The position numbers and the translations under genes were made by a program. 41,283 nucleotides of DNA from Thiobacillaceae bacterium. GTDB lineage: Bacteria; Pseudomonadota; Gammaproteobacteria; Burkholderiales; Thiobacillaceae. Each line of letters begins with the position of its first letter. Positions within the stretch are counted from its first letter, which is position 1. The stretch covers positions 1 to 41,283 of the forward strand of contig JAAPAA010000285.1 in NCBI GenBank assembly GCA_012274165.1, in the 5' to 3' direction. Positions 18,514 to 41,283 of this stretch are shown piece after piece. Below the pieces are notes generated by a model, which worked only from the letters and a program-made list of their open reading frames with translations, was not told the DNA's origin and made no database searches.

Positions 18514-18529
18514 TGGCACACGAGTTGCT
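18514..18529 (+). promoter_or_regulatory. Candidate sigma54 (-24/-12) promoter upstream of the guanidine-I riboswitch
   Basis: TGGCACACGAGTTGCT matches TGGCACR-N4-TTGCW with correct GG/GC spacing; riboswitch P1 begins about 50 nt downstream. Confidence 0.75.
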
Positions 18530-18579
18530 GATACAGGCATGTCGGGAAAGACGGCGCACGGGCGTCTGCATTTACCGCG

Positions 18580-18683
18580 AATGCGCAGCTAGGGTTCCGG
18601 TCCCGCGAGGGATGGCTGGTCCGAGAGCAGCCGGCCCCGAAGGCGGGGCTCCACGGAGGGACAAAAGCCCGGGAGAACGCATT
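18580..18683 (+). ncRNA. Guanidine-I riboswitch (ykkC motif, subtype 1)
   Basis: Conserved ykkC core: CUAGGGUUCCG ... GGCUGGUCCGAGAGCAGCC ... ACGGAGGGACAAAAGCCCGGGAGA. P1 pairs AATGCG (18580-18585) with CGCATT (18678-18683); internal hairpins UCCC-GCGA-GGGA, GGCUG/CAGCC and a GCCCC/GGGGC stem. Confidence 0.92.
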
Positions 18684-18727
18684 TACCGCTGTCCGGGGTT
18701 GATTCATTTTTTTCCAAGGAGCGCACC

Positions 18728-18974
18728 ATGCATCTGAATGCCGTACTGAAAAAACTGCTGCCGTCGGCGATGGCGGGCAGCGCCATCGACAGCGCGCTGA
18801 TGACCTGCGACCAGGTGGTGGGCGCGACGCCCAGGGGCGCACCTTCAAGGTGGTGATGCCGGTGGATTATTCCTACGGCGGCGACGCGCTGCTGCAGAAA
18901 AATGCCAGGTCAAGCAGGCGGCCGCGATTCCCGCGACGCTCGACGACCGCTATGTGAAAAGCGTGCTGAAATAA
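18728..18974 (+). pseudogene. Frameshifted, probably internally deleted ORF directly downstream of the guanidine riboswitch; possibly a remnant of an ABC transporter substrate-binding protein
   Basis: AAGGAG SD at 18716-18721 and ATG at 18728 (MHLNAVLKKLLPSAMAGSAIDSALMTCDQVVGA, signal-peptide-like), then GRTFKVVMPVDYSYGGDALLQK in another frame, then CQVKQAAAIPATLDDRYVKSVLK-stop in a third; 247 nt is not a multiple of 3. Family is inferred from context only. Confidence 0.55.
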
Positions 18975-19020
18975 ACCTCGTCGCCCTTCCCGAAGAGCGG
19001 CATTCGCCAGAAAGCTTCAC

Positions 19021-19293
19021 ATGTCCACCCGATTGTTCCGCCACCCAGACGGCACCCAGCCCGCGGCCAACGCCCGCGGCGGCGTGCTGATGACCTGGCT
19101 TACCGGCAGCTGCTATGCGAACTTGCGGCGCAAGCACATGCGCCACCACATCGACCGCGCCGACGTCATCAGTCTGGATACCAAGGCGCTACTGCTGAAA
19201 CTGTTGGCGCGACAGGAACACGCCGAGCTGTGGCCCAACCACGACATGGCTTTCTGGAAAACCCTGCGGCGCTTCCCCGAATGCCATGAATAG
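19021..19293 (+). pseudogene. Fatty-acid-desaturase-like remnant (90 aa ORF with desaturase histidine box, most of the protein missing)
   Basis: WLTGSCYANLRRKHMRHHIDRADVISLDTKALL resembles the second His box region (HxxHH) of membrane desaturases; far too short for a functional enzyme. Confidence 0.5.
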
Positions 19294-21451
19294 GCTCTCA
19301 AACGCGCAGCTTGCCGAACTGGCCGGGGCGGAATCCGACGCCCCGCTCGACGTCACGCGCCTGCTCACCACCATCACCGACAACCTGGTCGGCATGATCT
19401 ACCGCTGCCGGGTAGACGCGATCTGGAGCATGGAGTTTGTCAGCGACGGCTGCCACAAGCTCACCGGATACCGGCCCGACGAACTGGTGTTCAACACCCG
19501 GGTCTCCTACGACCAGATCACGCTGCAGGAAGACCGCGCGCACGTCAGCCGCACCATTCACCGCGCACTGGAAAAAAACGAATCCTTCGACATCGAGTAC
19601 CGCATCGAGCGCGCCGACGGCCGGGTATGCTGGGTGCTTGAACGCGGCGTCGGGATACGCGACGCAAGCGGCCGGCTGGCCTGGATCGAGGGATACATCC
19701 AGGACATCTCCGAACGCGTGGCGGCCAACGCCATGCTGCGCGAGACGGTGCGCCGCTACAGCAGCATTTTCGAGCACGCCACCGAAGGCATTTTCCAGAC
19801 CACGCCTGAAGGCCGTTATCTTGACGCCAATCCGGCGCTGGCGCGCATTTACGGCCACGCTTCGCCGGATGCGCTGATCGATCACCTGCACGACATCTCG
19901 CGCCAGCTGTATGTGCAGCCGGAGCGGCGCGCGGCCTTCGTGCGCCTGATGCAGGAACAGGGTGCGGTGCGCAATTTCGAGTCGCAGGTCTACCACCACG
20001 ACGGCCACATCATCTGGATTTCCGAGAACGCGCGCGCCGTCAAAAACGCGGATGGCAGCGTGCAGTTTTTCGAAGGCACCGTGGTTGACATCTCCGAGCG
20101 CCGCCAGCACGAAGCCGAGCTCGAATACCAGGCCAGCCACGACAGCCTGACCGGCCTGCCCAACCGTTCGCTGCTGCGCGACCGCATCGAACAGGCCATC
20201 GCCAAGGCGCGACGCGATGGCAACCGGGTGGGAGTGGTGTTTGTCGACCTTGACCACTTCAAGCTGATCAACGACAGCCTCGGCCACCACGTTGGCGATC
20301 GCCTTCTGCTGGAGGTTGCCGGCCGTCTCAGTTCCTGCATCCGTAGCCACGACAGCGTGGCGCGTCAGGGTGGCGACGAGTTCGTGCTGGTACTCACCGA
20401 GCAGCATGGCGAGGATGACACCCTCGCCATCATCACCCGACTGCTGGAGGTCATCTCCCAGCCATGGGTAGACGATGGCCGGGAATATGGGCTCAGTTGC
20501 AGCGTCGGCATCAGCTGTTATCCGAAGGACGGCGACGACCCCGACGCGCTGCTGCGCTGCGCCGACGCCGCCATGTACCAGGCCAAGGCGTCCGGCCGCA
20601 GCACCTACCATGTCTACACGCCCGAACTGAACCAGGCGATCAGCGCACGCCTTGAACTGGAAAACAGCCTGCGCCATGCGCTTGAACGCGCCGAATTCCG
20701 CGTCTATTACCAGCCGCGCATCGACGTTGCCAGCGGCCGCATCGTCGGCGCCGAAGCGCTGATCCGCTGGGAGTGTCCCGGCAAGGGCCTGATCCCGCCC
20801 GACCATTTCATTTCGATCGCCGAGGAAACCGGACTGATCATCCCCATCGGGCAATGGATCCTGCAGGAAGCCTGCCGCCAGAACCGCGCTTGGCAGCGCG
20901 CCGGGCTGCCACCCATCAGCGTCTCGGTGAATCTGTCGCCGATCCAGTTCCGCCATGCCGGGCTGGTGCAGTCGGTGGCCGCTGCGCTGCAGCAGGCGGA
21001 GCTGGACCCGGCCTGCCTGGAACTGGAACTGACCGAGTCCTTCGTCATGCACGACGCCGAACGCATCAACGTCGCCATGCAATCGCTGAAGGCGCTCGGC
21101 GTCGACATCGCGGTGGACGACTTCGGCACCGGCTATTCGAGCCTGAGCTATCTCAAGCGTTTCCCGGTCGATCGCCTCAAGGTGGACAAGAGCTTCGTGC
21201 GCGACATCGACAGCGACCCCGACGACGCCGCCATCGTGCGCGCCATCATTACCCTCGGCCACGCGCTGGGACTCAAGGTGGTAGCCGAAGGGGTGGAAAC
21301 CATGGCGCATCTGGAATTCCTGCAGCAGCATGGGTGCGACGAACTGCAGGGCTACTACTTCAGCCGTCCGGTTCCCGCTGCGGAAATGGAAGCCTTGCTA
21401 CGCGGCACGGCGGCGAGCGCGAGCTGGTGCGCATCGCAGCGTAGCGCATGA
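19286..21451 (+). CDS. PAS/PAC-GGDEF-EAL bifunctional c-di-GMP signalling protein
   Basis: PAS domains; RSHD I-site, [45 protein letters not shown]. Confidence 0.93.
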
Positions 21452-22287
21452 CGGCATCCATTCCATTGCATGCTGGCGAGTGGACGGAACAACCCGCGCC
21501 GGTTCCGGACGCCTACCTCGGCGTCTGGAACCGCACTCTGCTGGAAACCGCGAGCGGGCGTGATGAACGCAGCCAGGTGTGGTGGCTGCAAACCCCGCGC
21601 TGGCACGCCGATCTGCGCATCCCCGCCGGGCGGCCGGATTTTTCCGGCATCACCTGCCTTGCCGAATGCGACGACACGCAACTGGCCTGGCTCGCCACCC
21701 AGCAGGGTTTCTGCGGCGTCACCCAGGTGGAAGGTGAGGTCTGTACCTGGCATCGCCAGCTGGATTTCCAGCCTGCCAATGGCAGTCGCGACATCGGCCG
21801 CATGGTCTTTGACAGCGAGCGCGTGATCGAAACCGGCGTTGAATCCGACTATCAGGAAATCTGGGAACGGCTGCCACACAGCCAGGGCGGCACCGCCGCG
21901 CTCGAACTGCTGGTAGAAGCCGGCGAATTGCCCGTGCGTCCCGCCTGGCTCCTCGTCGCGGGCGACTGTTTCATCCATGTGCGGGGCCGCGCCCATCCCC
22001 TGCCGCATATCGCCAATCAGAAAAGTGTTTCTGACCTGGCCAGCCTCATCGCTCAAACCCGGCCCTCCCGCGCGCAACGGCTCGACTGGCTAAATGTCGA
22101 GATCAGTTTCGGCTATCGCAACGGCCCCGCACCCTGGCGCATCGAGCGTTCCACGCTGCCGTTCCGCGAGGGACAGATCCTCACTCACCCTGGAACCCTC
22201 CAGCGTCGTGGCCATCAGCTTGTCGTCGAAGGCAACAACGAACGGCGCTGGATAATCCTGGACTGGAACTTCGGCGCGATACTCTGA
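21448..22287 (+). CDS. Conserved hypothetical protein, possibly lipocalin/beta-barrel-like
   Basis: 279 aa, no TM segment; ATGA overlap with the upstream GGDEF-EAL gene suggests translational coupling; Trp-rich strands such as [22 protein letters not shown]. Confidence 0.7.
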
Positions 22288-31976: not shown

Positions 31977-33770
31977 TCAAGCTGCCCGGCTGGCCAGCCA
32001 CGCCCGCCATCCGCCATAGTCCGTAATGTCCTGCGCATCAGCCACGCCGATGCCTTCGCAGATGAAGCCATTCGCCACGCTGCCGTCGGCCAGTTCCAGT
32101 TTGCCGATGCCGAGCGGCGCCGGGATGCCGGCGACGAAGGAACCGAACTGGCTGGCGGGCATTTCCCAGACTTCGCAGGCGATGGCGGCGCCGCCCTCGT
32201 GCACTTTGATGAGGCCGGGGCGCTTGCCGTCGGGCAGGGCGTAGAAGCGGTATGTCGGCGCGGTCTGCGTCGTGGCCCCCAGACGGGCGTTGCGCTCGGT
32301 AAGTTGATGGTTGAGCGGCAAGCCGCTGAGATGTGCACCGACGACAGCGACCCGGACCTGGCCGCCAGGAAGCAGGTTCAATGTTTCGGCATCAGGCAGA
32401 ACATGCTCGGTGGCGCCCAGCTTGCCGCCGAGCGCCTGCTGCATGCGCGACGCCAGGTGCAGCAGCGGACCATCCTGATGCGGCGGCGCGATAAGGGTGA
32501 CGCCGAACGGCAGGCCATCATTCTGGAACCCGGCTGGCACAGCGGTCGCGGCGAGGTCGAGCAGGTTCATGAAGTTGGTGTAATAGCCGAGATTGGAATT
32601 GAGACGGATGGGGTCGGCTTCCATCTCGTCCACGCGATAGATCGTGCCGGCGGTGGGGGTGAGCATCACGTCGATGTCGTTCCACGCCGCATCGCACACC
32701 CGCCTGAACGCGCGCAGCCTGTAGAGATGGGCGAAGGTATCGGCGGCGCTGATGTCGCGACCGCCGGCGATGATGTCGCGCACCGGCGGAAACACCTTGT
32801 CCGGCTGCGCGTCGAAAAAGTCGCGGATGGCGAGGTAGCGCTCGGCGACCCAGGGGCCGCCGTAGAGCAGGCGCGCGGTGTCGAGGAAGGGGGCGAGATC
32901 GACTGCGACCGGCGTGCCGCCCAGCGCCTGCATGCGTTCCACCGCTTCGCCGAACAACCGCTCTGCCTCGGCGTTGCCGAAGAATTGCAGGTCCTTCTGC
33001 ATCGGCACGCCGAACCTGAAACCGGCGGCGCGGCCGAAGTCGAAGCCGTGCGGCGACAGCGGCCGCGAGTATTCATCGTCGGCGTCGAAACCGGCGGCGA
33101 CCGCCAGCACGCGCTCGGCGTCCTCCGCAGTCAACGCGAAAATCGACACCGCATCGAGCGAGCGGCACGCGGGCACCACACCGTGGGTGGACAGCGCGCC
33201 GCAGCTTGGCTTGTGGCCGACGAGGTGATTGAACGCGGCGGGCACGCGGCCGGATCCGGCGGTGTCGGTGCCGAGCGAGAAGCTCGCCAGACCGAGCGCC
33301 ACCGCGACCGCCGAACCGGAACTGGAGCCGCCGGAAATGAAATCGGGGTTGAAAGCGTTGCGGCAGGCGCCGTAGGGCGAGCGGGTGCCGTTCAAGCCGG
33401 TGGCGAACTGGTCGAGGTTGGTCTTGCCAAGCGGGATGGCACCGGCGTCGATCAGGCGCTGTACGACGGTAGCGTTGCGTTCCGGCGTGTAGGCGTATTC
33501 CGGACAGCCTGCGGTGGTAGGCAGACCGGCGAGATCGATGTTGTCCTTGATGGCGAAGGGGATGCCGTAGAGCGGCAGGCTGGCGATGTCCCTGCCTTCG
33601 AGTTTGCTTGCATAGGCCCGCAGGGCGTCGGCGTCGAGGCGGCTGATCCAGATATGGTGCGTGTCTTCTGCAGCTGTACGGGCGAGCAGGTCTTCCACCA
33701 GTTCAAGCGGGGTGAGTTCGCCGGACTGGTAGCGCTGGCGCAGGGTGGCGATGTCGAGCAATGGTTTCAT
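31977..33770 (-). CDS. atzF: Allophanate hydrolase (AtzF/DUR1 type)
   Basis: Amidase signature GGSSSGSAVAVALGLASFSLGTDTAGSGRVPAAFNHLVGHKPS plus C-terminal domain VRVAVVGAHLSGLPLNHQLTERNARL; 10 bp after the carboxylase gene. Confidence 0.93.
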   Translation of the reverse strand: MKPLLDIATLRQRYQSGELTPLELVEDLLARTAAEDTHHIWISRLDADALRAYASKLEGRDIASLPLYGIPFAIKDNIDLAGLPTTAGCPEYAYTPERNATVVQRLIDAGAIPLGKTNLDQFATGLNGTRSPYGACRNAFNPDFISGGSSSGSAVAVALGLASFSLGTDTAGSGRVPAAFNHLVGHKPSCGALSTHGVVPACRSLDAVSIFALTAEDAERVLAVAAGFDADDEYSRPLSPHGFDFGRAAGFRFGVPMQKDLQFFGNAEAERLFGEAVERMQALGGTPVAVDLAPFLDTARLLYGGPWVAERYLAIRDFFDAQPDKVFPPVRDIIAGGRDISAADTFAHLYRLRAFRRVCDAAWNDIDVMLTPTAGTIYRVDEMEADPIRLNSNLGYYTNFMNLLDLAATAVPAGFQNDGLPFGVTLIAPPHQDGPLLHLASRMQQALGGKLGATEHVLPDAETLNLLPGGQVRVAVVGAHLSGLPLNHQLTERNARLGATTQTAPTYRFYALPDGKRPGLIKVHEGGAAIACEVWEMPASQFGSFVAGIPAPLGIGKLELADGSVANGFICEGIGVADAQDITDYGGWRAWLASRAA

Positions 33771-33780
33771 TTTCTATTCC

Positions 33781-36700
33781 TCACTCGCTCACCAGCACCA
33801 GCAGGTCCTGCCCGGCGGAGACCTGCCCACCTTCGCGGCAGAACACCTTGTGGATGCGGCCGTCGCACGGCGCCATCACGGCGAACTCCATCTTCATCGA
33901 TTCGATGATGACGAGCGGATCGCCCTGCTTCACCTCAGCCCCATCTTCCACTTCCACTTTCCACACGTTGCCGGCGACGTGGCTGGCGATGGCGCGGCCG
34001 TTTTCCGGCAGGTCGAGTTCGCTGTCGGGGGCGGCTTCTGCCACCGTCAGGTCGCTGGCGTAGTCGGCCTGGCCGCTGGCGCGCCAGCGTTCGCGCTCTT
34101 CGTCGAACGAGGCCTGCTGCTGCGTCTTGAAGGCGGTGATGGACGCGCTGTTGTCGCTGAGAAACGTGTTGTAGTCGCGCAGGCTGAAGGTGGTTTCCTC
34201 GATCTTCAGCTGGTAGCGGCCAAGGGGGAAATCCTCGCGGATCTTGAGCAACTCGTCCTCGCTCACCGGGAAGAAGCGCACCTGGTCGAAGAAGCGCAGC
34301 AGCCATGGCTTGCCGTCGGTGAAGTTGGCCGTCTGGCGCCAGCGGTTCCACATCTGCAAGGTGCGGCCGACGAACTGGTAGCCGCCGGGGCCTTCCATGC
34401 CGTAGACGCACATGTAGGCGCCGCCGATGCCGACGGCGTTTTCCGGGGTCCAGGTACGGGCTGGGTTGTACTTGGTGGTGACCATGCGATGGCGCGGATC
34501 GACCGGCGTCGCCACCGGCGCACCGAGGTAGACGTCGCCGAGGCCCATCACCAGGTAGCTGGCATCGAAGACGATGCGCTTCACTTCCTCGATGCTGTCG
34601 AGGCCGTTGATGCGGCGGATGAACTCGATGTTGCTCGGGCACCAGGGCGCATCCTTGCGCACCGACTGCATGTACTTCTCGATTGCGAGTTTGGTCGCGG
34701 CGTCGTCCCACGACAGTGGGATGTGCACGATGCGGGTCGGCACCTGCATGTCCTCGATGGCGGGCAGCGCCTTTTCCGCGGCCAGCAGCAGGTCCATCAG
34801 TTTCGACAGCGGCAGCACGCGCGAGTCGTAGTGCACCTGCAGCGAACGGATGCCGGGCGTGAGATCGAGGATGCCAGGTACGGCGTCGGCCTGCAGCTTG
34901 GTCATCAGCGCGTGCACGCGGAAGCGCAGGTTGAGGTCGAGCACCAGCGGGCCGTATTCGATGAGCAGGTATTTGTCGCCGGCGCGGCGGTAAACCACGG
35001 CAACGGGGTTGTCGGTTTCGGGGGTGCGGTGCAGCACGGGTTCGGCGAGCGGACCGCTATCGGCGACGGGCGCGGCCGGGGCGTCGAGGCTGGCGATGGC
35101 GGCGTCCTGCGCCGCCTCCATCTGCTCGGCCTGCGTCTGGCTCAAGCGCTTGAAGCGCACGGTATCGCCCGGGCGCAGCTGGCCCATTTTCCACAACTCG
35201 GCCTGCACGATGGTGGCCGGGCAGACGAAACCGCCGAGCGAGGGACCGTCCGGCCCGAGGATGACCGGCATGTCACCGGTGAAGTCGACCGCGCCGATGG
35301 CGTAGGCGTTGTCGTGAATGTTGGACGGATGCAGTCCGGCCTCGCCGCCGTCCTTGCGCGCCCACTGCGGGCGCGGACCGATCAGACGGACGCCGGTGCG
35401 GCTGGAGTTGTAGTGCACTTCCCAGTCGGTGGCGAAGAACATCTCGATGTCGGCGTCGGTGAAGAAATCCGGCGCGCCGTGCGGACCGTACAGCACGCCG
35501 ATTTCCCACGCGTGCGTGTAAGTCGGGCGCAACGCGACGGGCAGCGCCTTGTCGATGCTCGCAGATTCCGCTGCCGGGATATGCAGCACGTCGCCGACGC
35601 GTAGCGTACGCCCGGCGTGGCCGCCGAACTGGCCGAGCGTGAACGTCGATTTGCTGCCGAGATAATCCGGCACGTCGAAGCCGCCGCGCACCGTGAGATA
35701 GGCGCGGCAGCCGCTGTCCCTGATCGCGCCGAGCTTGAGCATGCCGCCAGCCTTGACCGCGTGCGCCGCCCAGTTGGCGAGCGGTACGCCATCGAGTTCG
35801 GCGCCCATATCGGCACCAGCGAGCGCGATCACGCTGTCGCAGTTGAAGCGCAGCGTGGGGCCAGCGACGGTGAGTTCGAGCGCGGCCGCGCCCTCCTCGT
35901 TGCCGGCCAGCCTGTTGGCGAGCCGCAGCGCCAGCGCATCCATCGGCCCCGACGGCGGCACGCCGACGTCCCAGTAACCGGTGCGGCCCGGCCAGTCCTG
36001 GATGCTGCTCTGCACGCCGGGTTCGATGACGTCGATCGTTGCCGGGCGGTAGTGGAAGGCGTTGAGATAGCGCGTCGTCTGCCGCCCTTCCATGAACACC
36101 ATGTCGCGCACGATCTGGCCGAGGTAGCCGAGGTTGGTCTCGATGCCGGCAACGCGGGTATTGGCCAGCACCTGCTGCATCTTGCTCAGTGCGTCGACGC
36201 GGTCGATGCCCTTGACGATGATCTTCGCCACCATGGGATCGTAGAACGGCGGCACGTCGGAACCGCGCTCGACCCAGGTCTCGATCCGCGCGTCGGCGGG
36301 AAACACGACTTCGGTCAGCACGCCGGCGGCGGGCTGGAAGTCCTTGCCCGGGTCTTCTGCATACAGGCGCACCTGCATCGAGGCTCCCTGCGGATCGGCC
36401 TTGAAGCCGGACAAATCCAGCTCGCCGGCCGCCTCCTTCACCATCCACTCGACCAGGTCGACGCCGGTGACTTCCTCGGTGACACCGTGCTCGACCTGCA
36501 GGCGGGTGTTCACTTCGAGGAAATAGAATTCGCCACTTTGCGTGTCGTAGACGAATTCGACCGTGCCGGCGGAGCGGTAACCAACCGCCTCGCCGAGGCG
36601 CACCGCGGTGGCCAGCAGGCTGTTTCTTTGAATATCGGTGAGACCCGGCGCCGGGGTTTCCTCGATGACCTTCTGGTTGCGCCGCTGCACCGAGCAATCA

Positions 36701-37377
36701 CGTTCTCCCAGCGCGACGACATGGCCCTTGCCGTCGCCGAAGATCTGCACCTCGATGTGGCGCGCGTGCTCGACATACTTCTCGAGGAAAATGCCGGCCT
36801 CCTTGAAGTTGGCGCGCGCCAGCCGCTCGACCGACTGGAAGGCCTCCACCAGTTCGTCGGCGCTCCAGATCAGGCGCATGCCGATGCCGCCGCCGCCGGC
36901 GGTGCTCTTCAGCATCACCGGGTAGCCGATGCGCGCCGCCTCGGCCTGGGCGTGGCCGGCGTCGGACAGCAGGCCAGAGCCGGGCAGCAACGGCACCTTG
37001 TTGTGCTCGGCGAGATCGCGCGCGGTGTGTTTGAGTCCGAAGGCGCGCATCTGATCCGGACTGGGGCCGATGAAGGCGATGCCGGCAGCAGCGCAGTCCT
37101 CGGCGAAGCCGGGGTTCTCGGACAGGAAACCGTAGCCGGGATGAACGGCCTGCGCGCCTGTAGATTTCGCCGCTTCGAGAATCTTCTCGCCACGCAGGTA
37201 GCTCTGCGCCGCCGGCGCCGGGCCGATCTCAACGGCTTCGTCGGCCAGCCGCACGTGCAGCGAATGGCGGTCTGCCTCCGAATAGACGGCGACAGATTTC
37301 ACCCCCATGGTGCGAAGGGTGCGGATGATGCGGCAAGCGATGGCGCCGCGGTTGGCGATGAGAACCTTGTCGAACAT
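33781..37377 (-). CDS. Biotin-dependent urea carboxylase family enzyme; probable guanidine carboxylase by gene context
   Basis: Biotin carboxylase domain (MFDKVLIANRGAIACRIIRTLRTMG), KipA/KipI-type carboxyltransferase domain, C-terminal biotinyl domain with IIESMKMEF; flanked by two DUF1989 genes and allophanate hydrolase. Confidence 0.92.
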   Translation of the reverse strand: MFDKVLIANRGAIACRIIRTLRTMGVKSVAVYSEADRHSLHVRLADEAVEIGPAPAAQSYLRGEKILEAAKSTGAQAVHPGYGFLSENPGFAEDCAAAGIAFIGPSPDQMRAFGLKHTARDLAEHNKVPLLPGSGLLSDAGHAQAEAARIGYPVMLKSTAGGGGIGMRLIWSADELVEAFQSVERLARANFKEAGIFLEKYVEHARHIEVQIFGDGKGHVVALGERDCSVQRRNQKVIEETPAPGLTDIQRNSLLATAVRLGEAVGYRSAGTVEFVYDTQSGEFYFLEVNTRLQVEHGVTEEVTGVDLVEWMVKEAAGELDLSGFKADPQGASMQVRLYAEDPGKDFQPAAGVLTEVVFPADARIETWVERGSDVPPFYDPMVAKIIVKGIDRVDALSKMQQVLANTRVAGIETNLGYLGQIVRDMVFMEGRQTTRYLNAFHYRPATIDVIEPGVQSSIQDWPGRTGYWDVGVPPSGPMDALALRLANRLAGNEEGAAALELTVAGPTLRFNCDSVIALAGADMGAELDGVPLANWAAHAVKAGGMLKLGAIRDSGCRAYLTVRGGFDVPDYLGSKSTFTLGQFGGHAGRTLRVGDVLHIPAAESASIDKALPVALRPTYTHAWEIGVLYGPHGAPDFFTDADIEMFFATDWEVHYNSSRTGVRLIGPRPQWARKDGGEAGLHPSNIHDNAYAIGAVDFTGDMPVILGPDGPSLGGFVCPATIVQAELWKMGQLRPGDTVRFKRLSQTQAEQMEAAQDAAIASLDAPAAPVADSGPLAEPVLHRTPETDNPVAVVYRRAGDKYLLIEYGPLVLDLNLRFRVHALMTKLQADAVPGILDLTPGIRSLQVHYDSRVLPLSKLMDLLLAAEKALPAIEDMQVPTRIVHIPLSWDDAATKLAIEKYMQSVRKDAPWCPSNIEFIRRINGLDSIEEVKRIVFDASYLVMGLGDVYLGAPVATPVDPRHRMVTTKYNPARTWTPENAVGIGGAYMCVYGMEGPGGYQFVGRTLQMWNRWRQTANFTDGKPWLLRFFDQVRFFPVSEDELLKIREDFPLGRYQLKIEETTFSLRDYNTFLSDNSASITAFKTQQQASFDEERERWRASGQADYASDLTVAEAAPDSELDLPENGRAIASHVAGNVWKVEVEDGAEVKQGDPLVIIESMKMEFAVMAPCDGRIHKVFCREGGQVSAGQDLLVLVSE

Positions 37378-37437
37378 GCAATCTCCGGCGGGTCGTCCCG
37401 CTTCATTCAATGCAGCGGGGCGTCCCGCCGTCAGGTT

Positions 37438-38097
37438 TTATTGTTCAGGCGCGTCCCAGATCAGCACCCGCACCGGCGTCGGGTTGTAGGCGTTGCACGG
37501 GTTGTTGAGCTGCGGGCAATTGGAGATCAGGCACAGCACGTCCATCTCGGCGCGCATCTCGACGTACTTGCCCGGCGCCGACACGCCATCGGCGAAGGTC
37601 AGGCCGCCCTCGGGCGTCACCGGCACGTTCATGAAGAAGTTGATGTTGCTGGTGATGTCGCGCTTGGTCAGGCCACCCTCATAGTGGGCGAGCGCATGCA
37701 GGAAACTGTCGCGGCAGGAATGCATCGGCCGCTTGTCGAGCGCATAGCGCACGGTGTTGCTCTCGCACGAGCAGGCGCCGCCGAGGGTGTCGTGGCGGCC
37801 GCAGGTGTCGGCGGTAATGGTGAGCATCGCCCTGCCTTCGGTCGACATCAGCTGCGTGCCGGCGGTGAGATACAAGGCGCCCTGCGCGCGCACGGTGTCG
37901 GCGGCGCTGTAGCGTTCCTCCGGGTCGCGCGCATTGAAGAACAGGGTGTCGACCGCCTGGTTGCCTTCGAGGTCGAGGATGCGGAAGACCTGACCCTTCT
38001 TGATTTCGTGGATCCACGGATCGCCGGCGTCAACCACGGCATCCACCACAGCGGTCTTGGGATCGAAGGAACTTTCGACGAGGTTAAAACGAGTCAC
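37438..38097 (-). CDS. DUF1989 protein, urea carboxylase-associated protein 2 type (probable carboxyguanidine deiminase subunit)
   Basis: [74 protein letters not shown]. Confidence 0.88.
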
Positions 38098-38106
38098 GGT
38101 GCCACC

Positions 38107-38844
38107 TCAACGGAACAGGATTTCGGTTTGATAGAAGCCGCGCTGGTTTTCCGCGCAGGCGTTGCGGCAGACGTCGTCGGCAGCTGGCGTTCCGCTCTTC
38201 CACGCGGTCAGCATGACGTCGCCCGGCGCGTAGTCGGGGCGCGGATCGAGCGGATGCGGTGCGGCAGACAGCACCACCAGCACGTTCATCTCGAAGCGTA
38301 GATCAACGTAGGCACCAGGGTGCGAATTGGCGGCGTCGAAGTGCAGCCGGCCGGCCTCGTCGGCGACGACCTTGCTGAAGAAGTTGACGTTCGGCACTAC
38401 GTCGCGCTTGCCCAGCCCCCACTTGCCGAGTTCGACCAGCAGGCCATCGCGGCCGTTGCGGTGCATGGCGTTGCGGTGGGTCTGGTAGGTGGCTTCGCCG
38501 TACTTCGCCTTCACCATCTCGGCGTTGCTGGCGCCGCACAGCGGGTCATGCCAGCCGCAGCTGTCATGGATCACCGAGCACAGCACGTGGCCCATGTCGG
38601 AGTAGCAGACGTGGCCCGTCGTCAGGTGCGCGGTGTGCTGCGCCTTGAGGGTGTCGGGCATGTTGTAGCGCTCGAGCTTTTCTTCGGCGTTGTAGAACAG
38701 TGCCGAGACGTTGGCGCGGCCGCTCAGATCGGTGAGCCGCAACGCGTTGCCGCGGCGCAGGATGCCCGACCAATGGCAGCCACCCGGCAGCAGCTCTTCC
38801 CACAGGAACAGCTTCGGGGCAATGGGGTTGAGGTTTTGTGCCAT
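38107..38844 (-). CDS. DUF1989 protein, urea carboxylase-associated protein 1 type (probable carboxyguanidine deiminase subunit)
   Basis: LTDLSGRANVSALFYNAEEKLERYNMPDTLKAQHTAHLTTGHVCYSDMGHVLCSVIHDSCGWHDPLCGASNAEM; 9 bp from the UAAP2-type gene. Confidence 0.88.
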   Translation of the reverse strand: MAQNLNPIAPKLFLWEELLPGGCHWSGILRRGNALRLTDLSGRANVSALFYNAEEKLERYNMPDTLKAQHTAHLTTGHVCYSDMGHVLCSVIHDSCGWHDPLCGASNAEMVKAKYGEATYQTHRNAMHRNGRDGLLVELGKWGLGKRDVVPNVNFFSKVVADEAGRLHFDAANSHPGAYVDLRFEMNVLVVLSAAPHPLDPRPDYAPGDVMLTAWKSGTPAADDVCRNACAENQRGFYQTEILFR

Positions 38845-38880
38845 ATGAAATCCAGTCGATAGGTTGATAGCCGGCTTATC

Positions 38881-39348
38881 TCAGCCGGCGGCCGGCGCGT
38901 GCAGCGGCGGGATGACCGCCGCCAGCAGGTGCAGGCGGCCGGTGATGACGCCGCGCAAGCCGAGCATTTCATGGGTGATGGCCTGGAGCGTGGTCGCCGG
39001 GCCCTGGACCAGAATCACCTCCAGCATCTGGTCCTCGGTCAGGTGTACATGCAGCGAGCTGATGACCTCGGCGACGTACTGATACTGGATGTCCGCCAGC
39101 CGGCCCTGCAGGCTGCGGGTGGCACGGTTGTACAGCAAGGTCAGGGTGCCCGCCATGACCTCGTTGCCGAGGCTGCGCTTATGCTCGGCCAGCTGATAAT
39201 TGACCATTTCGCCGATGGCCTGCGAGCGGCTGTCATAGCCGCGGCTCTCGACCATGCTGTCCAGCCCGGCCAGCAGGTCCGGCGGCAGCGAGACACTGAT
39301 TCGGCTGACCGGGCTGGACACCTTCTCGCTTCCGTTTTTCGTCGTCAT
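38881..39348 (-). CDS. NikR-like ribbon-helix-helix transcriptional regulator with altered metal site
   Basis: RHH N-terminus VSRISVSLPPDLLAGLDSMVESRGYDSRSQAIGEMVNYQL and NikR-type C-terminal domain with LHVH; two E. coli NikR ligand positions substituted. Confidence 0.85.
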   Translation of the reverse strand: MTTKNGSEKVSSPVSRISVSLPPDLLAGLDSMVESRGYDSRSQAIGEMVNYQLAEHKRSLGNEVMAGTLTLLYNRATRSLQGRLADIQYQYVAEVISSLHVHLTEDQMLEVILVQGPATTLQAITHEMLGLRGVITGRLHLLAAVIPPLHAPAAG

Positions 39349-39368
39349 GCTTGGCTCTGTTCAGGCTG

Positions 39369-40730
39369 TCAGAACATGTAGCTGTAGCGTTCGACTTCCC
39401 ACTTGCTGACCGACAGGTGGTAAGCCTCCCACTCCTCGTTCTTGTAGCGGATGAACTCGTCGCGCAGTCCCTTGCCCAGGGTGGCCTCGACCAGCGGGTC
39501 GGCAGCGAAGGCGGCCACGGCCTCCTGCAGGGTCTGCGGCAGGAACTCGATGCCGCGCGCGCGGCGCTCGTCGTCGCCGATGGCATAGAGGTTGTCCTCG
39601 TTCGGGTTGCCCGGACTCAGACCCTCGCGAATGCCTTCCAGGCCAGCGGCCAGGGCCAGGGTGGCGGCCAGGTAAGGGTTGACCGCGCCGTCGGCGTTGC
39701 GCGATTCGCAGCGGCCGCCGCCGGAGGGAATGCGGACCGAGTTGGTGCGGTTGTTGGAGCCCCAGGAGTTGAACACCGGCGCCCAGGAAAAATAGCTCAT
39801 GGCACCGCGCCGCACCAGGCGCTTGTAGCTGTTCACCGTCGGCGCGAACACAGCGCACAGGGCGCGGCCGTGCTTGAGGATGCCGGCGACGAAGCTGTAG
39901 CCGAGCGGGGTCAGGCCGATGCCGTGCGGGTCGTCCTCGGGCGCGCAGGCGAACAGGTTCTTGCCGGTCTCCAAATCGTAGATCGACATGTTGAAGTGGG
40001 CGCCGTTGCCGGTTTTGTCGGCGAAAGGCTTGGGCATCATGGTGGCGAGCAGGCCTTCCTCCTTGGCGTAGTGCTTGGCCATGAAGCGGAAGAATGTGAG
40101 GCGATCGCAGGTGGTCAGCGCATCGGCGTAGTTGAAGTCGAACTCGAACTGGCCGTTGGCATCTTCGTGGTCGAAGGAATACAGGTCCCAGCCGAGGTCG
40201 TTGATGGTTGTGGCCACCTTGTCCAGCCAGGAGAAATTGTCGACAAAGCCGCGCACGTCGTAGCAGGGCTTGGTGAGCTTGTCGTCGGCGACCGGCACCG
40301 ACAGGCTGCCGTCGTCGTTCTGCTTCAACAGGAAGATCTCGCACTCGATGCCCAGGTTCATGCCGTAGCCGAGCTTGGCCGCCTCGGCCAGCTGGTTCTT
40401 CAGGGCGACGCGGGTGTTCAGGGCATAGGGCTTGCCCTGGAAATGGTTGTCAGCCGGAATCCAGGCGATCTTCGGCTCCCACGGCAACTGGATGGCGCGG
40501 TCGAGGTCCGGCACCGAGGTCAGCTCGTCGTCGTTGGGTGCCTGGCCGAGGCCATCCAGGGCGTAGCCAGTATAGCGTTCGGAGCCCTTGGCCATCTGGC
40601 CGAGGTGGCCGATCGGCACGACCTTGGCCTTGGGCACGCCGTGGATGTCGACATAGGCGCCGATGCAATATTTCACGCCCTTGTCGGTCAGGTCTTTTTG
40701 CTGGTTGGCGATCTCTTCGTTCGAATACAT
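39369..40730 (-). CDS. Type III-like glutamine synthetase (GlnT group)
   Basis: [40 protein letters not shown]...[10 protein letters not shown]...[12 protein letters not shown]...[37 protein letters not shown]. Confidence 0.88.
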
Positions 40731-40764
40731 GTTGGGTCCTTGGTGCGTGGATAAGCGGGACGGC

Positions 40765-41283
40765 TCAGGCGCCGTCGCCGAAATAGGAATGGGGAAGCGG
40801 GGGGGCCTCGGTACAGCCTTTCACAACCAGCTTGGCAAGGTCGGCCACCAGCCAGTCGAACCAGCGCGCGCCCTTCTCCGCCGTGGCCAGGCTGGGCGTG
40901 CCGGTCACGCCATTGAGGCTGGTGCGATTGACCGGATGGGAAAAGACGCAGCCACAGGTGCGGTCCGGGTCGTCGGCTTCTGCGAACTTGTCCGGACGCA
41001 CCCCCTCGGGGGCGATGGCCAGCATGATCGACGCCTCGGCGTCGTTAGCGTGCCAGTCGTCGGCGTCGGCGCTGTGGAATTCGCGCACCCGTTCGCTGAG
41101 CGTCGCGGTATTAATCACCGCGACCATCAGGTCGTCGTGCTCGGCGCGCAACATCTCCAGGGCGCAGCGCAGCGGCGCAGCGTTGGTGACATGCGCGTTG
41201 ACGATGAACAGGCGGCGGATGCCGCTGTGATACGCCCAGTCGCCGATCTCCTTGACCAGCTGGATCAGCGTGACCGGCTGCAG
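40765..41283 (-). CDS. Creatininase family protein, C-terminal part (5' end outside window)
   Basis: Frame open to window end: [52 protein letters not shown]...[26 protein letters not shown]; matches creatininase-fold layout (NxH..N and HAxxAExS motifs). Confidence 0.82.

Follow-up and report, generated by a model that had tools for sequence, protein, structure and literature searches.

A guanidine-I riboswitch leader heading a truncated operon in a Thiobacillus genome

Results

Leader elements and surviving genes

The stretch of DNA analyzed (41,283 nt; hereafter the window) belongs to a Thiobacillus metagenome-assembled genome (MAG) of 407 contigs, which is 84% complete; the genus is evident from its named relatives. 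The features of the locus are listed below.

18514–18529, + strand: sigma-54 (-24/-12) promoter-like motif, TGGCAC-N5-TTGCT, about 49 bp 5′ of the aptamer
18578–18677, + strand: guanidine-I (ykkC subtype 1) riboswitch aptamer, intact as judged by its RF00442 score and 0/92 branch substitutions
18666–18720, + strand: expression-platform hairpin, aptamer 3′ end GCCCGGG against the downstream arm CCCGGGC (alignment and folding)
18728–18974, + strand: wreck of an NMT1-type substrate-binding protein gene (blastn/tblastn to L047, L048, L049 and L054)
19021–19293, + strand: open 90-aa fusion remnant of desaturase-like pieces and a metallo-hydrolase end (tblastn; breakpoints)
19286–21451, + strand: intact PAS-PAS-GGDEF-EAL (c-di-GMP) gene, a surviving operon member (Pfam; synteny)
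21448–22287, + strand: intact 279-aa gene (DUF), the last surviving operon member (orthologues behind the metallo-hydrolase)

The original prediction of a guanidine-I riboswitch was borne out by an Infernal search with the Rfam model RF00442, which gave a significant match at 18578–18677 of the top strand (82.4 bits, E = 2.3e-13; gathering score 63). The alignment covers the full model length (1–107), so that the whole aptamer lies above the gathering cut-off, and no other RF00442 match occurs in the genome. Judged by its sequence, the aptamer would be expected to bind guanidine. The predicted Shine-Dalgarno element is also there: an AAGGAG sequence is located 6–7 nt 5′ of the ATG at 18728.

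The motif at 18514–18529, TGGCACACGAGTTGCT, is a perfect match to the sigma-54 consensus TGGCAC-N5-TTGCW, with the GG and GC elements 10 bp apart. No other perfect match is present in the window, where 0.04 would be expected by chance. All 29 guanidine-I loci of the family have such a motif upstream: the best one at each locus matched 9–11 of 11 positions with GG/GC and lies 10–49 bp 5′ of the aptamer. Six loci without a scoring riboswitch retain the motif at 10–11 of 11 positions; among 170-bp segments taken at random from the window, about 0.8% reach a score of 10. A GGTGCA half site was seen upstream of the motif in the window. We consider 18514–18529 a putative sigma-54 promoter. The presence of such motifs before guanidine-I loci means that the operons of the family probably respond to guanidine and also to nitrogen limitation, the latter being deduced from the promoter type.

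The hairpin that uses the 3′ end of the aptamer, and would compete with it, is kept in relatives with intact genes and is mutated in the window. Here the downstream arm CCCGGGC has become CCGGGG (CCCGGGCC to CCGGGGTT on the window lineage), 6/44 positions of the downstream hairpin are substituted on the window branch, and the local fold reaches -15.8 kcal/mol as against -22.7 to -29.5 kcal/mol in the intact relatives. A terminator scan found no canonical intrinsic terminator 3′ of the window aptamer, and in Thiobacillus the hairpin does not resemble one, its U-tract being distant or absent. Folding of the whole leader was no better than that of shuffled sequences (z = -0.69). For these reasons we make no claim about the mode of switching from folding alone.

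Broken genes behind the leader

The open reading frame starting with the ATG at 18728 ends after 42 codons, and tblastn located residues homologous to the intact protein in two other frames beyond it. This demonstrated that the two frame changes are real and that the reading frame is too short, as had been predicted. The predicted break at 18728–18974 does contain a broken gene; the damage is longer, however, reaching 19293 and including large deletions beyond the frameshifts.

Comparison of the window with the sister species (G060) and with G083 gave five aligned blocks. Relative to G060, four segments are missing from the window, of about 174 bp (the part encoding the signal peptide), 565 bp, 171 bp and 2260 bp; measured against G083, where the cysteine hydrolase gene is present, the fourth comes to 2880 bp. 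These four internal deletions span 18756–19195. At two breakpoints neighbouring blocks share 4 and 9 bases, as deletions at microhomologies would leave. The substrate-binding protein gene has also lost single bases at two further sites, which changes its reading frame. In total it carries the ~174-bp and ~565-bp deletions together with two frame changes, and no signal peptide is left. In relatives the protein is 328 aa long, and an intact relative matches PF09084 (NMT1) at 5e-21. Its identity is taken from intact relatives only, since direct Pfam and NCBIfam searches of the broken pieces gave no match.

Further downstream, tblastn placed residues 48–114 of the desaturase at 19003–19182 and residues 234–260 of the metallo-hydrolase (its last 27 residues) at 19210–19290. 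At 19021–19293 the reading frame of this fusion remnant is uninterrupted, and its last 8 bp are shared with the beginning of the c-di-GMP gene, an arrangement also present in relatives. The EamA transporter and cysteine hydrolase genes are entirely deleted. Intact copies of the substrate-binding protein, desaturase and cysteine hydrolase genes were not found elsewhere in the assembly (84% complete). The only other substrate-binding protein in it, on contig C53, is 31% identical and resembles those found in carboxylase operons.

The intact operon in relatives

The comparison of this locus among related genomes supported the view that the leader is left over from an operon with deleted structural genes: related species carry intact copies behind the same leader. 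The gene order there is NMT1-type substrate-binding protein, desaturase-like protein (PF00487), EamA transporter (PF00892), biuret-hydrolase-like cysteine hydrolase of the isochorismatase fold and lactonase-like metallo-hydrolase, followed by the PAS-GGDEF-EAL gene and the 279-aa DUF gene. The metallo-hydrolase is closest to AHL lactonases, below the cut-off. The cysteine hydrolase of the relatives scores 265 bits with NF050097, whose equivalog cut-off is 370, and also matches biuret hydrolase 6xjm.

Module genes were found behind this leader in G060, G083, G084, G093, G072 and G109, the last from another genus, and all six share the upstream flank with the window where the contig reaches. The loci of G072 and G084 are split by contig ends, and the G072 leader is not on the contig carrying the genes. 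The G060 copy is incomplete as assembled, with no cysteine hydrolase gene and with a stretch of undetermined bases (N) within the transporter gene; the operon of G109 is without the c-di-GMP gene.

Both intact genes of the window belong to this operon. A PAS-GGDEF-EAL orthologue lies directly 3′ of the metallo-hydrolase gene in relatives and in another family, and the window gene at 19286–21451 is under purifying selection on the window branch (ratio of codon positions 1+2 to 4-fold sites 0.20). The 279-aa gene overlaps it by 4 bp; orthologues of it lie 3′ of the metallo-hydrolase gene both in G109 and in loci from other families (L147, L148, L150, L152 and L153). Overall, the first gene, which would be intact in a functional operon, is destroyed by two deletions and frameshifts, and the original downstream c-di-GMP and DUF genes are intact. 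The window leader therefore heads a truncated operon in which five of seven genes are lost or broken and the last two are intact. Because these two genes survive, the description of the riboswitch as an 'orphan' was too strong.

The carboxylase operon

A second guanidine-related operon occupies 31977–41283 on the bottom strand. It encodes allophanate hydrolase, urea/guanidine carboxylase, UAAP2, UAAP1, a NikR-like regulator and type III glutamine synthetase, and what reads as a creatininase-like gene comes next, near the contig end. A move of the missing genes to this operon had been suggested and was rejected. The operon is a separate locus from the broken one, carboxylase operons elsewhere in Thiobacillus have a guanidine-I leader of their own, and no intact copy of the three missing genes searched for turned up in the rest of the 84% complete assembly.

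The NikR-like gene (38881–39348, bottom strand) scores above the cut-offs of some NikR models and below those of others; a similar gene is present within the carboxylase operon in G105 and G497. A guanidine-II candidate before the carboxylase gene (37388–37431, bottom strand) scores 26.7 bits, below the cut-off, and at the matching place in G105 (L074:12144–12191, top strand) the score is 39.6 bits, above it. A guanidine-II element may therefore precede the carboxylase gene in this operon variant with NikR and type III glutamine synthetase.

Repeated losses in Thiobacillus

Genes of the module have also disappeared from other Thiobacillus genomes. At this locus the first four genes are missing from G075, where an aptamer of 78.5 bits still precedes an intact metallo-hydrolase gene. 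G105 has a damaged aptamer (65.6 bits) with a gene fragment, and the aptamer of G082 scores 36.5 bits. Remnants below the threshold are left in G053, G064, G092 and G107 (Thiobacillus thioparus DSM 505), and in G078 and G069 the aptamer is almost gone.

On the tree the losses fall in about six places: the window genome (G000); G078 with G069; G075; G105; the clade of G082, G107, G053 and G064; and G092. We thus infer about five losses in Thiobacillus besides that of the window lineage, a number which is only an estimate because some deep nodes are weak (support 51–77). The clearest cases are the window genome beside the intact G060, and G105, whose sister G072 has intact genes. After loss of the module the aptamer decays in most of the other lineages, and the promoter motif and the c-di-GMP gene are kept. 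The c-di-GMP gene is retained in all loss lineages, and in those tested it is under purifying selection (ratios of positions 1+2 to 4-fold sites 0.12–0.37). In G107 and G072 the match to this gene is split between frames (L068 and L071).

Substitutions on the window branch

Since the split from G060 the aptamer has acquired no substitutions on the window branch (0/92), as against 11/94 in the flanking leader and platform (Fisher p = 0.0007) and 29/302 in the gene debris (p = 0.0004); 4-fold sites have changed at 0.12–0.14. In the debris 15/212 sites at codon positions 1+2 have changed, compared to 6/186 in the same segments of the sister. From this excess, the period after gene loss was estimated at about 36% of the branch length (90% interval 2–71%). 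The unchanged aptamer could mean continued selection; part of the branch predates the loss, however, the time since the loss is poorly known, and an aptamer neutral since then would still show zero changes with a mean probability of about 0.09.

The guanidine-I module across Burkholderiales

Orthologues of the metallo-hydrolase (at least 60% identity) are present in 22 of 400 genomes of the order, and 20 of these 22 have a guanidine-I riboswitch, compared to 51/400 overall. The module genes were clustered at the eleven loci examined, usually directly 3′ of a guanidine-I aptamer; at two of the eleven they come last in a carboxylase operon. At one of the eleven, in G338 from another family, the c-di-GMP gene also follows the module genes, with 71% identity.

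A conserved guanidine-I module was thus seen in several families of Burkholderiales (L030, L047, L049, L050, L054 and L144–L154), consisting of substrate-binding protein, desaturase-like, EamA, biuret-hydrolase-like and lactonase-like genes, often with a c-di-GMP or DUF gene. L147 and L148 (genus g41) have two desaturase-like and two or three substrate-binding protein genes per module, which suggests duplication or a longer pathway. The open-access literature, to which the search was confined, yielded no description of module genes (desaturase/isochorismatase, biuret) with a guanidine riboswitch, nor of a guanidine riboswitch with sigma-54. The module thus appears to be widespread in Burkholderiales and undescribed, a novelty that an open-access search does not prove.

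Discussion

The data are best explained by a leader that is a relic of an operon dismantled by successive deletions, its aptamer being most likely at an early stage of decay; we regard this as highly probable. Guanidine and, given the sigma-54 type of the promoter, presumably also nitrogen limitation would once have switched on the operon through the promoter and the aptamer. Successive deletions in the window lineage then removed or broke the first five genes, leaving the last two. The ligand-binding part is unchanged while the hairpin that would do the switching has begun to drift, and the switch itself has presumably lost its function. Where these genes were lost in other lineages, the aptamer disappears later, with the promoter motif and the c-di-GMP gene remaining.

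Alternatively, the switch may still work and, following the deletions, directly control the PAS-GGDEF-EAL and DUF genes, linking c-di-GMP to guanidine and nitrogen. Control of the c-di-GMP gene had been proposed in the original prediction and is possible, since this gene belongs to the same operon in relatives, including another family. The unchanged aptamer between drifting flanks and the perfect sigma-54 motif upstream speak for a working switch, as does the remnant at 19021–19293, which has remained open and still overlaps the c-di-GMP start as in relatives. However, intact relatives preserve the hairpin arm, whereas here it is mutated and the hairpin folds far more weakly, and in other lineages the c-di-GMP gene persists without the aptamer. 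Moreover, about 600 nt of mostly untranslated debris with an early stop would favour transcription polarity. We consider a working switch rather unlikely. It is doubtful, too, that the aptamer works with the c-di-GMP protein under sigma-54 and guanidine, the lost module importing or processing a guanidine-related compound. Residual control of the c-di-GMP gene by the leader is possible, and we rank the relic as the more likely of the two.

Since the genome is a fragmented MAG, with 407 contigs and incomplete, the small indels could be errors and the gene intact in the organism. The four large deletions are not easily explained in this way: their breakpoints lie inside genes, two genes are totally lost, and these are not single-base errors. 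The assembly is without intact copies, and the same genes are lost in other Thiobacillus species, including Thiobacillus thioparus DSM 505. Sequencing or assembly error is thus largely refuted as an explanation and very improbable. It is equally hard to believe that the leader is a stand-alone regulatory RNA (sponge or sRNA), which could in principle be transcribed from the sigma-54 motif and end early, as no terminator-like site was found and in relatives without the genes the leader decays instead of being kept.

The locus forms part of a graded series within one genus, in which the structural genes are lost first and the switch afterwards, and the promoter motif and the signalling gene persist. 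As for the module itself, Pseudomonas mendocina hydrolyses guanylurea to guanidine (PMC12186494). Our guess, which fits the gene types, is that the module takes up and cleaves a guanidine-releasing compound such as guanylurea; it may point to a natural guanidine-related substrate.

The window leader agrees with known guanidine-I riboswitches (RF00442) in its full-length covariance-model match above the curated score, its conserved core and its position before genes. It differs in that the first genes are destroyed, the switching hairpin is weakened and a sigma-54 type promoter motif lies upstream. The cysteine hydrolase of the module resembles BiuH and other isochorismatase-fold cysteine hydrolases, matching NF050097 and 6xjm in the relatives, but scores below the equivalog cut-off of 370 and is wholly deleted in the window. 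Finally, the operon shares with guanidine carboxylase operons having an ABC importer, as in Vreelandella boliviensis (PMC12508155), a guanidine-I leader followed by a periplasmic substrate-binding protein, and a related carboxylase operon is that at 31977–41283 of the window. Unlike the Vreelandella boliviensis type, the broken operon is without carboxylase, carboxyguanidine deiminase and allophanate hydrolase, and is characterized instead by desaturase-like, EamA, biuret-hydrolase-like, lactonase-like and c-di-GMP genes.
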